Source of the DNA: Celeribacter neptunius
Lineage (GTDB): Bacteria > Pseudomonadota > Alphaproteobacteria > Rhodobacterales > Rhodobacteraceae
Reading direction: 5' to 3'
DNA length: 64,000 nucleotides
Assembly (NCBI RefSeq): GCF_900113955.1
Contig: NZ_FORH01000001.1
Location: 736,395 to 800,394 of the forward strand
Part shown: one piece after another, positions 9,832-21,965 of the stretch
Layout: every line of letters starts with the position of its first letter
Numbering within the stretch: position 1 is the stretch's first letter
Translations under genes and position numbers: made by a program
Notes under the pieces: model-generated
What the model was told of the DNA's origin: nothing
Databases searched by the model: none
What the model saw: only the letters and a program-made list of their open reading frames with translations

Positions 9832-10169
9832 ATTCCTCTCCATGGATTGGGACCTTTTGACCTCGACAGTATTGCCCGGAAGTATAAACGATTGGTTTCC
9901 AAAATGGGTTAATTGCGCCATCTGCCCAATATTAATTGGGTTTTTCGTGAATTTCTGGCCTTTGCATGATGCGCAAAGCCCCGCCGCGCGTGTCATGATG
10001 CAAATCCCGGACAGAGACATTCATCCCATATCGGCGCCTGACTGGCGCGCGGGGCAGCCCGTCAGGGGGCGGTCTCGGGGCGCGTTCCCGTGGCGGTCGC
10101 GCCGCACAGGAGCCGGCAGCTGTGTGTCCGGTGGCAGGTTGCCGGAGCGCGCTTGTCGAAGATGGGGGA
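9832..10169. other. Intergenic stretch before ssrA, no gene seen
   Basis: This AT-richer stretch carries an inverted repeat at 9925-9940 (CCCAAT, 4 bases, ATTGGG), followed on the plus strand by TTTTT, which could act as a weak plus-strand terminator or an operator. No reading frame with coding character or tRNA structure was found. Confidence 0.4.
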
Positions 10170-10508
10170 AGTGCAGGTTTCTGTTGCCAGGTACCTGCGA
10201 ACCCCGCCTTACGCTGCTAGGCGAAAGGGCTTAGATTTCGATATTTCGCACAGCTTACGCTGCGAGAGCCATCGGAGCTTTGTTGTCGTTTGCAACTAGC
10301 TTAAGTGAACCGATAACGGTGGTATCTCACCGAGACAAAGCAAACCCCTTTAGACGTCCGTCGATCCTATTTCGTCCCCATGATCCAATCTCTTGCCGAT
10401 CTCAAACGAAGATCGAAGAGGGGTATTTGGTGGAGACGCCGGGTACCGCCCCCGGGTCCGATCCGCTTATTACGAGCGCGTTTATGTCCATAGTCCGGCG
10501 AACCGGAC
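10170..10508 (-). ncRNA. ssrA: Transfer-messenger RNA, circularly permuted two-piece type
   Basis: Read on the minus strand, the acceptor piece comes first (about 10508-10428). It contains a GTCCGG-TTCG-CCGGAC hairpin, the T-arm region CCCGGGGGCGGTACCCGG and an encoded 3' CCA at 10430-10428. After a spacer of about 48 bases the coding piece starts at 10379 with GGGGACGAAATAGGATCGAC, the counterpart of the 5' end of ordinary tmRNA. Its GGGGACG pairs over 7 bp with CGTCTCC of the acceptor piece. The tag frame at 10293-10255 encodes ANDNKAPMALAA and a TAA stop. Hairpins near 10200-10230 and at 10173-10198 close the coding piece. This permuted arrangement is known in alphaproteobacteria. Exact ends are estimates. 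Confidence 0.93.
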
Positions 10509-10514
10509 AAAGCA

Positions 10515-10543
10515 TATATAGGCAAGCGGGCCAGGGCGTTCAA
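10515..10543 (-). promoter_or_regulatory. Sigma-70 type promoter of ssrA
   Basis: On the minus strand TTGAAC (10543-10538), a 17-base spacer and TATATA (10520-10515) precede the predicted 5' end of the acceptor piece at about 10508. Both boxes are close to consensus. Confidence 0.75.
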
Positions 10544-10615
10544 GGGGGATCGGTCTGCGGACGAGAGCGCGGGGCCTGTCCCGCGACAGCGTCGCTATCG
10601 CGCTGAAAAACATGG

Positions 10616-10660
10616 GGTAAGGTTTTACGCAGGTAAGGTTTCCCTTAGGTAAGCGTTACC
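10616..10660 (+). repeat. Three direct repeats at exact 16-bp period
   Basis: GGTAAGGTTT starts at 10616 and 10632, and GGTAAG at 10648. The third copy also forms an inverted repeat with TTACC (10656-10660). The array lies between the divergent ssrA promoter and the peptide/radical SAM cassette and looks like a cooperative protein-binding array. Confidence 0.6.
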
Positions 10661-10709
10661 GGTATAGGCGAATCCCAGGACCCGTGTTTTGCTGATTGCG
10701 CAGCTTGCC

Positions 10710-10724
10710 GTTGCAAGTTGCAAC
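10710..10724 (+). promoter_or_regulatory. Perfect inverted repeat upstream of the peptide gene
   Basis: GTTGCAA-G-TTGCAAC is a perfect 7-1-7 palindrome ending 28 bases before the start codon at 10753. It falls in the spacer of a tentative promoter (TTGCCG at 10705, TATCAG at 10729), the position expected for a repressor site. Confidence 0.5.
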
Positions 10725-10752
10725 TTTGTATCAGTAACCAGTGAGGTATAAA

Positions 10753-11004
10753 ATGCCGCGTAAAATTTCCAACCCCTATGCCGCCGTGAAAACCACGATG
10801 ATCGGTCTTCCGAAACTCGAGGACTCGGATCTTGACCTTCTGGCCGACGATCCGAATGCCTTTTTTGCGGAACCGGGCAATCGGGCCAAGCTGTTCGGCA
10901 TGCCTGCCGACAAGCTGAAGCTGACGCTGGCCGAATACGGTCTGCGCAAAGGGGTCGATCAGGCCGCGATGATCAAGAGCGTCATCACCGAGATCGATTG
11001 GTAA
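10753..11004 (+). CDS. 83-residue peptide encoded next to a radical SAM enzyme, candidate modified-peptide precursor
   Basis: The frame has good high-GC codon use. The start at 10753 is preceded by GTGAGG; a GTG four codons upstream is less likely. The peptide has no signal sequence or membrane segment and no cysteine. The basic N-terminus MPRKISNPYAAVKTTM is followed by an acidic segment LEDSDLDLLADDPNAFF, a KLFGMPADKLKLTLAEYGL helix-like stretch, and a C-terminus VITEIDW ending in the only tryptophan. The radical SAM gene begins 39 bases downstream with no terminator between. That pairing is typical of ribosomally made, post-translationally modified peptides, but no known precursor family was recognised. 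It could also be a small partner or substrate-carrier protein. Confidence 0.7.
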   Translation: MPRKISNPYAAVKTTMIGLPKLEDSDLDLLADDPNAFFAEPGNRAKLFGMPADKLKLTLAEYGLRKGVDQAAMIKSVITEIDW

Positions 11005-11043
11005 GCCTCCGGGCTTGTCATCCTGTCTTTGTGATCCTGCAAA

Positions 11044-12132
11044 ATGACTGTCTCTTGTGAGCAGGTCAGCAGATATGGCGAGCACATCGCCATATCTGTC
11101 ACCAATTCCTGCCCCCTCCAATGTGCACATTGCATTTCCGGATCGGCCCCGGACACCGCCCGTGGGGCGTCGGGGCTGATCGAGGCCTTCGACGCGTTGC
11201 TGGCGCGCTGGCCGATCATCAACCATGTCACCTTCACCGGTGGCGAACCGTTTCATCATCCCGAGGAACTGGCCGAATTTGCCGCCCGCGCCAAGGCACG
11301 CGGCGTGCGCTACGGCGTGATCACCGGGGCGTTCTGGGGCAAATCCGAACGTTCCTGCGATCGCTATCTCAAGGCCGTGCCCGATCTCGCCACGATGACC
11401 GTGAGCACGGATCTCTATCACCAGCAATTCGTCACCCATCGCCATGTTCTCAATGTGGTGAAAGCCGCGCGCAAACGCGGCATCCATGTCAAGGTGCGCT
11501 TCACCCATGCCGATCCGATGCCGGAGGCCGAGCGCGCCGTCGAGGCGGCGCTGAAGGCCGATCTCCGGCCCGAGGAGCTGGAATACGCGCCCTTGCAGAA
11601 ATACGGCCGGGCGGTGGAGCAGGGGATCGGGCGCAGCTATGACCGCTGGTCGCCGCAGCCGCGCGAGACCAAATACGGCATCTGCCCCTCGACCGGACCG
11701 CATATCTTCGAGAATGGCCGGGTCATGCCGTGCTGTAACACCATCGTTTCGCTGCGCGACACGGATATTCCGCTCGATTTCGGCAATGCGATCACGGAAG
11801 GCGTGCCAAAGGTACAGGCGAACCGGGCGCAGAACACCTTCTGGCTGGCGATCAAGGTGCTGGGGTTTGACTGGCTGAAAGACCGGCTGAGCGAACTCAA
11901 CCCCGCCTATGCCGAGTATGCGCCGATCAACGCCTGCGATTTCTGTTTTGATGGCTGCAAGCCCGGCGGCATCCGCGACGATATCGCCCGGCTGATGGCG
12001 GATCCTTCGCTGGCGCTTTACGTCCATTCCGTGGCCGCCGAGGCCCTGGGAGAGATGCCGGATATTGCCCTGCTCAGTGGCTTTGCCGCGCAAATTCGCA
12101 CTGGTCGGGCCGAGTCTGGGATCAGGCTCTGA
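11044..12132 (+). CDS. Radical SAM protein with SPASM-like C-terminal cysteines
   Basis: The protein has 362 residues. The 4Fe-4S/SAM motif CPLQCAHC places cysteines at residues 23, 27 and 30, followed by the SAM-contacting FTGGEPF near residue 64. The C-terminal third carries further cysteines at about 214, 230, 231, 298, 301 and 305 (YGICPSTGPH, VMPCCN, ACDFCFDGCKPGG). This layout matches a SPASM or twitch auxiliary-cluster domain. Such enzymes commonly install carbon-carbon, thioether or other radical modifications on peptides. No clear ribosome site precedes the ATG at 11044, which suggests coupling to the peptide gene 39 bases upstream. A hairpin terminator follows at 12150. No transporter or protease is adjacent. 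Confidence 0.88.
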   Translation: MTVSCEQVSRYGEHIAISVTNSCPLQCAHCISGSAPDTARGASGLIEAFDALLARWPIINHVTFTGGEPFHHPEELAEFAARAKARGVRYGVITGAFWGKSERSCDRYLKAVPDLATMTVSTDLYHQQFVTHRHVLNVVKAARKRGIHVKVRFTHADPMPEAERAVEAALKADLRPEELEYAPLQKYGRAVEQGIGRSYDRWSPQPRETKYGICPSTGPHIFENGRVMPCCNTIVSLRDTDIPLDFGNAITEGVPKVQANRAQNTFWLAIKVLGFDWLKDRLSELNPAYAEYAPINACDFCFDGCKPGGIRDDIARLMADPSLALYVHSVAAEALGEMPDIALLSGFAAQIRTGRAESGIRL

Positions 12133-12149
12133 AGGGGGCTCAAACGAGA

Positions 12150-12176
12150 CTGCCGCCCCCGATCCGGGAGCGGCAG
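12150..12176 (+). terminator. Hairpin terminator after the radical SAM gene
   Basis: CTGCCGC pairs with GCGGCAG and, after one mismatch, CCCG with CGGG around a 3-base loop, followed by a T-rich region ending CTTCTTT. It lies 17 bases past the stop codon. Confidence 0.6.
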
Positions 12177-12204
12177 ATCAAGTGTCTTCTTTAATCAGAG
12201 TGGC

Positions 12205-13245
12205 TTAGAAGCCGGCTTTGATCTTTTCGAACTCTTCGGATTGTTTGGTCCGGAGCTCCACCGACATCGGCAGCTGCGCCAGGATCGGGGCGTCGATCGG
12301 CTCGAGCCCGCCGGCGACCAGAGCCTCTTCGCCCAGGGTGGCGAGGCCTTCGGTGTTGGAAATGCCGTAGCCGGCATCCATCAGCACGGCGGCGTTGGAG
12401 GCATCGAGGAAGCCATTGATGTAATCATAGGCCTTGTCCTCGGAGCCGGGACCGTCTTTCAGGTTCACATAGCCGCAGAGCCAGAGCGAGGAGCCTTCGG
12501 TGGCCTGGCGCTCGAAGCCTATCGGGAAACCTTCGTCGGCGAGCGTCGGATAGGTCTCGTTCCAGGCCCAGGCGATCAGCACCTCACCGGTGGCCATCAG
12601 CTGCGCCAGCTCGGCCGGGTCGGTCCAATAGGTGCGCAGGTTCGGATGCACTTCGCGCAGCCAGTTGGACGCCGCTTCGAATTGCGCGTCGGTGGCGGTG
12701 GTCCAGTCGGTGGTGCCGGTGGCGAGATAGGCCAGCGCATAGGCATCGTCGACATTGTCGGGCAGGGTCATGCGGCCCGCGTATTTCGGGTCCTTGTAGA
12801 CCTGCAGGGTCTTCACATCCTCGACCGGCACCTCATCGGCATTATAGGCCGTGGCGGTGGAGCCGAAGTCGGTGGGGATGAAATAGGCGCTGTCGGAACC
12901 GACGTCAGCCCCCAGAAGATTGCTGTCGAGCTTGGAATATTCGGTGATTTTCGAGGTATCCCAGGGCTCGATGATGCCGCTTTCTTCCCATTTCTTCACC
13001 GACCCGGCGCAGACGTGGCTGACATCGGCCTTGAAGCCGGAGACGAGTTTTTGCAGCGCCTCGTCCTCTTCGCCGAAAAAGGCAAAGGACGGCACATCAC
13101 CGTTTTTCTCGGCATATTTGGTGTGGAAGGCCGGATCTTCGAAACCGGAATAATCGAACACCAGAAGCTCGGCGTCTTCGGCGAAAGCGGCGGCCGCCAG
13201 CACGGACAGCGCGGCGCCGCCCAAAAGGGTTTTAAGAGCGTTCAT
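12205..13245 (-). CDS. Periplasmic solute-binding protein, spermidine/putrescine type
   Basis: This 346-residue ABC-type binding protein has a signal peptide (MNALKTLLGGAALSVLAAAAF, cleavage after FAE). The mature part has the bilobal layout of the PotD/PotF family, with LLVFDYSGFEDPAF, YFIPTDFGSTATAYNADEV and LIAWAWNETYPTLADEGFP regions. Start chosen at 13245, preceded by GGGAGACGA. No permease or ATPase gene is adjacent, so it either uses a transporter encoded elsewhere or serves chemosensing. Polyamine specificity is inferred from family resemblance. Confidence 0.85.
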   Translation of the reverse strand: MNALKTLLGGAALSVLAAAAFAEDAELLVFDYSGFEDPAFHTKYAEKNGDVPSFAFFGEEDEALQKLVSGFKADVSHVCAGSVKKWEESGIIEPWDTSKITEYSKLDSNLLGADVGSDSAYFIPTDFGSTATAYNADEVPVEDVKTLQVYKDPKYAGRMTLPDNVDDAYALAYLATGTTDWTTATDAQFEAASNWLREVHPNLRTYWTDPAELAQLMATGEVLIAWAWNETYPTLADEGFPIGFERQATEGSSLWLCGYVNLKDGPGSEDKAYDYINGFLDASNAAVLMDAGYGISNTEGLATLGEEALVAGGLEPIDAPILAQLPMSVELRTKQSEEFEKIKAGF

Positions 13246-14238: not shown

Positions 14239-14340
14239 TTATGAAACAACGTCTCGTGAAAGGCAAGCCGGGGACGTGCGGTGAGGACGCGTGCGTGGGG
14301 TGCCGATTTGCAGGACAGGTTTGGAGAAGAGGAGAGACAG

Positions 14341-15333
14341 ATGATCAAAGCATTGGTGATGGAGCAGGGGGAAGACGGCTTGGCCGCAGCTCAGATCAAG
14401 GAGATTTCCGAAGACAGCCTGCCGGCGGGCGACGTCACGGTGCGGGTCGAATACTCGACGCTCAATTACAAGGACGGTCTCTGTCTTTCGCCCAAGGGCG
14501 GCGGTCTGGTGCGCAGCTATCCGCATGTGCCGGGGATCGATTTTGCCGGCACTGTCGAAAGCTCCGACAGTCCGGAGTTCAAACCCGGCGACAAGGTGGT
14601 TCTGACCGGCTGGCGTGTCGGCGAAGTGCATTGGGGCGGCTATGCCGAGAAAGCGCGGGTGAAATCCGACTGGCTGGTGCCGCTGCCCGAGGGGCTGTCG
14701 ACGCGCCAAGCCATGGCCGTCGGCACCGCTGGTTTCACGGCCATGCTGGCGGTGATGGCGCTCGAGGATCACGGATTGAGCCCGGATCAGGGTCCTGTCC
14801 TGGTCACCGGTGCTTCGGGCGGGGTCGGCTCCGTCGCCACCGCCATTCTGGCGCATCTGGGCTATGAGGTCGCCGCTGTCACCGGCCGGCCCGAGGGGGC
14901 GGGGTATCTCAAATCCCTGGGCGCCACGCAGATCGTGCCACGCGACGAGATCAACGAAGTGGTGAAACGCCCGCTCGAAAGCGAAAGCTGGGCCGGGTGC
15001 GTCGATGCCGTCGGCGGCGAGATGCTGGCGCGCCTTCTCGGGCAGATGAAATACGGTGCCTCGGTGGCCGCGGTCGGTCTGGCCGGCGGCGCGGCGCTGC
15101 CGGCGACGGTCATTCCCTTTCTGCTCCGGGGCGTGAACCTTTTGGGCATCGATTCCGTCATGCAGCCGAAAGCCAACCGTATCCGCTGCTGGCACCGCAT
15201 CGCGACCGACCTGCCGATGGAAAAGCTCGAGGAGATGGTGCAACCCGCAAGGCTCGAGGATCTGCCGGAGCTTGGCGCGGCGATCCTCAAGGGTGGGGTG
15301 AAGGGCCGGGTGCTGGTCGATCTGGGCGCCTGA
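14341..15333 (+). CDS. acuI: Acryloyl-CoA reductase (NADPH), AcuI-type medium-chain reductase
   Basis: The protein has 330 residues. It is a zinc-free MDR/quinone-oxidoreductase fold. STLNYKDGLCLSPKGG marks the N-terminal catalytic domain. VLVTGASGGVGSVATAILAHLGY is the NADPH-binding motif, read as VLVTGASGGVGSVA then TAILAHLGY. The C-terminus includes GIDSVMQPKANRIRCW. AcuI reduces acryloyl-CoA to propanoyl-CoA, which detoxifies acrylate from DMSP or 3-hydroxypropionate. No DMSP lyase or TetR-type acuR is adjacent; a GntR/FCD gene is divergent instead. The start at 14341 is preceded by GAGGAGAGACAG. Confidence 0.88.
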   Translation: MIKALVMEQGEDGLAAAQIKEISEDSLPAGDVTVRVEYSTLNYKDGLCLSPKGGGLVRSYPHVPGIDFAGTVESSDSPEFKPGDKVVLTGWRVGEVHWGGYAEKARVKSDWLVPLPEGLSTRQAMAVGTAGFTAMLAVMALEDHGLSPDQGPVLVTGASGGVGSVATAILAHLGYEVAAVTGRPEGAGYLKSLGATQIVPRDEINEVVKRPLESESWAGCVDAVGGEMLARLLGQMKYGASVAAVGLAGGAALPATVIPFLLRGVNLLGIDSVMQPKANRIRCWHRIATDLPMEKLEEMVQPARLEDLPELGAAILKGGVKGRVLVDLGA

Positions 15334-21444: not shown

Positions 21445-21495
21445 GAATGCTTGCATGGCTAGAATGCTTGCATGGCTAGAATGCTTGCATGGCTA
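21445..21495 (+). repeat. Three perfect 17-bp tandem repeats
   Basis: GAATGCTTGCATGGCTA occurs three times without a mismatch and ends 14 bases before the host-attachment-family start codon. Each unit contains the palindrome ATGC-TT-GCAT. Confidence 0.9.
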
Positions 21496-21509
21496 GAGAG
21501 GAGGAAGAC

Positions 21510-21965
21510 ATGTCCGTTCTTCAAAAAGGCACCTGGGTGCTCGTCGCCGATGGCGAGAAAGCCCTGTTCCTGCGCAATGATCTCGAGGCAATGAACCCGG
21601 ATCTGAATGTGCTGCGTATCGAGACACAGGACAATCCTGCCGACCGCGATCAGGGGACGGCCCGCGCCGGGCGCAAGGCCGATGCCGGACCGGGGCAGAA
21701 AACCGCGCTCGAGGAAACCGATTGGCACGAGCTGGCCAAGGAACGCTTTGCCGAGGAGATCGCCGCGATCCTGTACCAACAGGCCCATGGTGGCGCTTTT
21801 GAGCGGATCGTTCTGGTGGCGCCGCCCGCCACCCTGGGCGAGCTGCGCAGCAAGCTCCACCCGGAGGTGCGCGCCAAGGTCGTCGGCGAGATCGCCAAAA
21901 CCCTGACCAACCATCCGCTCGACAAGATCGAAAGCCTGTTGCTCAAGGAACTGGAAGCGGCCTGA
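21510..21965 (+). CDS. Host attachment family protein (Host_attach / AtsE-like)
   Basis: This 151-residue protein begins MSVLQKGTWVLVADGEKALF, the standard N-terminus of the family named after an Agrobacterium attachment locus. A disordered DRDQGTARAGRKADAGPGQK loop precedes a C-terminal eRF1-domain-like half (FERIVLVAPPATLGELRSKL, VGEIAKTLTNHPLDKIESLL). Members are widespread, including in bacteria with no host, so attachment is a label rather than a proven function. A GAGAGGAGG site precedes the ATG at 21510. Three 17-bp repeats lie directly upstream. Confidence 0.85.
   Translation: MSVLQKGTWVLVADGEKALFLRNDLEAMNPDLNVLRIETQDNPADRDQGTARAGRKADAGPGQKTALEETDWHELAKERFAEEIAAILYQQAHGGAFERIVLVAPPATLGELRSKLHPEVRAKVVGEIAKTLTNHPLDKIESLLLKELEAA

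Follow-up and report, generated by a model that had tools for sequence, protein, structure and literature searches.

The window analysed here is a stretch of 64,000 nucleotides from Celeribacter neptunius, and it includes the gene for tmRNA (ssrA) and, reading away from it, a small peptide operon. The ssrA gene occupies 10164-10520 on the minus strand, with a core promoter, TTGAAC-17-TATATA, at 10515-10543 on the same strand. On the plus strand, the gene for an 83-aa small protein, a putative precursor peptide (10753-11004), is followed by the gene for its partner, a radical SAM protein of 362 aa (11044-12132; PF04055, E 3e-12). Both genes, together with an array of short repeats, are held in an extra segment, at about 10550-12150, that separates ssrA from the gene for a solute-binding protein, assigned by Pfam. 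A terminator-like hairpin on the minus strand (12150-12176), after the solute-binding-protein gene, lies at about the right-hand end of the segment. The region between ssrA and the peptide gene had been described as divergent, and the strands of the two genes agree with this.

The array contains three copies of GGTAAG, GGTAAGGTTTTACGCA, GGTAAGGTTTCCCTTA and GGTAAGCGTTACCGGT, which by direct reading begin at 10616, 10632 and 10648, with a start-to-start distance of exactly 16 bp throughout, as the initial annotation had it. That annotation also noted two copies identical over 10 bases and an added inverted half, TTACC; the 10-base block is GGTAAGGTTT, common to copies 1 and 2, and TTACC is found at 10656-10660, after copy 3. 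In a repeat search, copies 1 and 2 are 16-nt units with 75% identity. Tandem Repeats Finder, run with its threshold lowered to 30, gives the array a period of 16, 2.4 copies and a score of 48, which is below the default cut-off of 50.

The repeat unit is better drawn as an imperfect 13-bp dyad, GGTAA-N3-TTACC, that recurs every 16 bp with 3-bp linkers, all on the plus strand. Copy 1 (10616-10628) reads GGTAA-GGT-TTTAC, with three of five letters of the second half matching, and copy 2 (10632-10644), identical to copy 1 in its first 10 bases, reads GGTAA-GGT-TTCCC, with four of five. Copy 3 (10648-10660), which holds the inverted half, is the perfect dyad GGTAA-GCG-TTACC, so that 12 of 15 second-half letters match across the three copies. 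DNA has 10.5 bp per helical turn, and because 16 bp is about 1.5 turns, neighbouring copies are on opposite faces of the helix; by the same arithmetic only copies 1 and 3, which are 32 bp apart, share a face. The earlier description of the repeats as evenly phased is right for their equal spacing and does not imply that neighbours lie on one helix face. Same-face spacing of neighbouring sites, as looked for in a cooperative multi-site operator, is absent, but this weighs little, given that it is not required by all operators. As such an operator would, the array does repeat a single site sequence at a regular interval within non-coding DNA. It ends 92 bp before the ATG of the peptide gene, and operators are common at such a distance upstream of a start codon.

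For the gap at 10548-10752, which is 205 bp long, 3000 dinucleotide shuffles produced three equally spaced identical 6-mers, at any spacing from 8 to 40, in 3 cases. A dyad score of 12 matches was reached in 8 of 20,000 shuffles of the letters after GGTAAG when the copies were treated as independent, and in 55 of 20,000 when the block common to both copy 1 and copy 2 was shuffled as one, in a test that was picked after the data had been seen. The 6-mer GGTAAG alone shows no enrichment in the window, with 8 occurrences observed, 6.49 expected, and at least 8 in 32 of 100 shuffles. Across the 4.4-Mb genome, GGTAAG-N10-GGTAAG is limited to two overlapping pairs, both in the array; because the reversed control pattern was also found twice, a single such pair is not rare, whereas the triple is.

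The array is more than random letters, and short tandem duplications explain an array of its kind without function. The real window has nine clusters of comparable triples, whereas 40 shuffles of the whole window gave 0.8 on average and at most 3, so short tandem duplications are common here. Tandem Repeats Finder lists higher-scoring arrays as well, for example at 21445-21497 with a score of 106 against 48. The latter stretch is a perfect 17-bp tandem repeat, GAATGCTTGCATGGCTA, in 3.1 copies, and stands directly before a plus-strand ORF that starts near 21489-21510. In viral contigs, the exact 16-bp-phased GGTAAG triple is found in 11 stretches that are, by eye, mostly plain tandem repeats. 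One viral stretch (L063) that resembles copy 3 was set aside; it is surrounded by ORFs that look transposase-like by eye, and the part read holds no cassette. Given the nine clusters, the viral triples, a score under the usual reporting cut-off and the fact that the array with its cassette was found nowhere else in the searches, the array may be what remains, in decayed form and without function, of a short tandem duplication of 16 bp in non-coding DNA that was newly acquired, and we put this at a little under an even chance. Against it, GGTAAG and the dyad symmetry stayed while the copies diverged, subject to the late choice of the dyad test.

The initial annotation suggested that the repeats bind a regulator of one or both of the divergent units. 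Comparison within the genus speaks to the ssrA part of this claim. Of 20 genus genomes, one that is 85% complete had no ssrA match, leaving 18 relatives and C. neptunius itself for comparison. A counterpart of the ssrA promoter is present at all 19 loci, with a -35 box of TTGAA in 15 genomes and TTGCA in 4, followed by a 17-bp spacer and a hexamer that starts with TA. The array was found at ssrA in none of the 18 relatives, with 600 bp examined in each, and the examined stretches of L013 and L020 each hold one single GGTAAG. The array does sit in the shared divergent gap, which would allow it to act on ssrA, either alone or jointly with the peptide operon. However, ssrA and its promoter are retained in all 18 relatives although the array is missing there, and the array begins 73 bp upstream of the ssrA -35 box. 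Control of ssrA is therefore very unlikely, and that part of the earlier claim falls; the part that concerns the peptide operon may hold, since the array lies inside the extra segment.

The same relatives show what takes the place of the extra segment. The solute-binding-protein gene is within 140 bp of reference point 10495, on the same side, in 8 of the 18, and at 850-873 bp with other DNA between in another 3. In 5 relatives, that side instead carries a relative of window 14281-15333, which on reading by eye is a quinone-oxidoreductase-like gene, and in the remaining 2 none of the tested genes is present on that side within 1.5 kb. The peptide and radical SAM genes are near ssrA in none of the 18, with about 1.5 kb examined. 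Because the segment is rare, the extra DNA was probably gained here rather than lost by the other relatives, and the lack of the array next to ssrA in the 18 relatives indicates that it came with the segment or arose in it. Which genes lie between ssrA and its neighbour differs from one member of the genus to another (window 10550-12150 and L005-L022), and on these gene contents the promoter side of ssrA looks like an insertion slot. Repeats found here should therefore be assigned first to an incoming cassette and only then to ssrA. Searches of plasmids and phages with the gap sequence returned no match. A literature search on insertion at ssrA in Rhodobacterales found no matching work, and a search for GGTAAGGTTT gave, among the matches listed, only papers that their titles mark as unrelated.

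The cassette resembles the YydF/YydG epipeptide loci, in which, according to the part of the source available, a short peptide gene is followed by a radical SAM gene (PMC7026026). The gene order is the same, and the best NCBIfam model for the enzyme is the YydG peptide epimerase, TIGR04078. The cassette differs from these loci in that the enzyme scores 66.3 bits, below the model's cut-off of 300, and the peptide, even with E values up to 1 allowed, matches nothing in NCBIfam or Pfam. No regulator gene is present in the cassette. Among 20 genus and 394 family genomes, only its own yielded the peptide, and the radical SAM protein, used alone as a query, gave no confirmed cassette relative in genome contigs. 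Plasmids gave neither a radical SAM match (at a strict limit of E 1e-30) nor a peptide match, phages gave no match to the radical SAM protein, and viral contigs gave none to the peptide.

A search of the class (385 genomes) returned no relative beside the enzyme itself, and a search of the phylum (398 genomes, E 1e-20) returned one, with 31% identity (L024). At L024 the radical SAM gene is preceded by a gene for a 76-aa protein that is 29% identical to the window peptide in a two-sequence alignment, and both proteins are also found in Litchfieldella qijiaojingensis (L025). A scan with a two-row alignment led to 21 loci, of which 8 (L025-L032) were read and 13 weaker ones (L033-L045) left out. 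Further relatives, with 24-34% identity in the best segment, come from records of Syntrophomonadaceae, Reyranella, Geomonas, Bacteroidales, Chloracidobacterium and Chloroflexota. In L025, L026, L028, L029 and L032, the radical SAM gene is preceded by an ORF of 76 to 181 aa. Pairs of a small ORF and a radical SAM gene are scattered across distant groups (L024/L025 and L026-L032). The small proteins of L028 and L029 end in stretches rich in Ala, Val and Ile, and by eye a motif resembling DLYHQQF of the window enzyme recurs in most of the distant enzymes. In the 900 bp that precede the radical SAM match, neither GGTAAG nor CTTACC appears at any of the 8 distant loci read; this span includes the small ORF itself, and L031 offers only about 364 bp of it. 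Because these loci are so distant, the result is weak evidence against a conserved operator.

A strict promoter scan of 10450-12250 found no promoter. In a lax scan, the candidate for the peptide operon is TTGCCG-18-TATCAG on the plus strand (10705-10734), which is weak at 8 of 12 consensus matches and would place the start at about 10740. A weaker alternative, TTTCCC-18-TATAGG (10639-10668, plus strand, 7 of 12), would have copy 3 fill its spacer, and further plus-strand candidates run into the start codon. Weak candidates also appear on the minus strand, where TTACCT-19-TAAAAC (7 of 12) uses the array itself. The central position of copy 3 in the TTTCCC-18-TATAGG spacer suggests that the array could belong to the peptide promoter itself or to its leader RNA, but with only 7 of 12 matches for this promoter where other candidates score 8, and with array folding that is not unusual (z -1.11 and -1.58), this is a poor prospect. 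Between the array and the peptide start, a 15-bp palindrome, GTTGCAAGTTGCAAC, at 10710-10724 is overlapped by a terminator-like hairpin at 10700-10721, before the peptide gene. Folding of 10675-10760 is ordinary (z -1.08), and the palindrome and hairpin at 10700-10724 are a candidate for a second operator or a leader element.

The initial annotation proposed a search for the motif elsewhere in the genome, and this search lent it no support, since patterns with 0-3 mismatches were not above the reversed-pattern control. The perfect dyad, GGTAANNNTTACC, is found at 2 places in the genome against 6 for the reversed control, and a longer pattern with 3 mismatches gave 8 matches against 23. The other GGTAANNNTTACC place (L068, contig C7) is about 100 bp before an ORF that resembles, by eye, an FtsE-type ABC ATPase. 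In a search of 384 family genomes, a triple with one mismatch allowed is found in two, C. neptunius and G168, with the control in one genome, and GGTAAGGTTT-N6-GGTAAG in three, C. neptunius, G168 and G078, with the control in none. Simple base counting gives a chance expectation of about 2 for the triple and about 0.7 for GGTAAGGTTT-N6-GGTAAG, so the matches in family genomes are near chance. The G078 match was rejected as a second array, as it is inside a coding gene.

At the G168 locus (L069, 10880-13428 of contig C6; also L056), a ParB-like gene (PF02195) is beside an ORF that is ParA-like by eye, and what may be a replication gene, again by eye, adjoins them. Four palindromes, CTTACCC-N2-GGGTAAG, are found there, and behind one of them comes a half-site at 16 bp (GGTAAGGTTTTGCCTGGGTAAG). 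The locus is a putative parABS system, and its replicon perhaps uses the palindromes as parS sites; ParABS partition loci with such sites are treated in the available parts of PMC9040568 and PMC10419367. The array shares the half-site GGTAAG with these palindromes, but it holds the inverted pair only with 2 mismatches: 10638-10653 fits CTTACC-N4-GGTAAG to that degree, and this is also the nearest approach to the full G168 palindrome. The G168 half-site at 16 bp and the fit at 10638-10653 might suggest that the array is what is left of a plasmid centromere (parS) that arrived together with the cassette. This is highly improbable, given that the 2-mismatch pattern shows no signal in the C. neptunius genome (34 places, not one of them perfect, where the control has 138), that this genome has no match to the G168 ParB-like protein at E 0.001 in a search run without a positive control, and that the two other genomes of 384, one with a coding match, are near the rough expectation.

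The array could instead serve the acquired peptide/radical SAM operon as an operator close by, which is the best of the functional readings. In short, a dimeric helix-turn-helix regulator encoded elsewhere would bind the three tandem imperfect dyads across their 3-bp gaps, most strongly at copy 3, which is nearest the peptide gene, and the bound array would set expression of the peptide operon and not that of ssrA. Binding of a protein, its dimeric nature and the peptide operon as its target are each steps that we infer. The operator reading is supported by the rarity of the triple in the gap and of the dyads in either form of the shuffle test, by the genus comparison, in which the ssrA promoter is kept throughout and the array is not, and by the non-coding position of the array ahead of the peptide ATG. 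It is weakened by the lack of a second array in the genome and of a regulator gene in the cassette, by the result at the distant radical SAM loci, by a 16-bp spacing that sets neighbouring copies on opposite faces, by the want of a convincing promoter that would fix the geometry, and by the nine clusters of such triples in the window. The operator and the functionless duplication are about equally likely, each falling somewhat short of even, and sequence alone does not separate them.

Multi-site operators of dimeric regulators are known from phage lambda, where OR and OL are built of 17-bp dyads every 20-24 bp. The array is similar in that several imperfect dyads are neighbours in a control region, but its dyads are of 13 bp, every 16 bp, with no regulator gene next door. 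BldC sites, as described in the part of the paper available, are direct repeats bound cooperatively by a small regulator (PMC5859096); the array is also made of direct repeats, a likeness of arrangement in a different host group.

That the contents of the gap vary across the genus is a firmer result than the operator reading. It is conceivable, if rather unlikely, that the array is bound by an undescribed regulator that serves only this rare cassette, which would have moved horizontally with the neighbourhood of ssrA as its landing slot. If the array is an operator, it would offer a way to learn under which conditions an uncatalogued peptide-modifying cassette is turned on.
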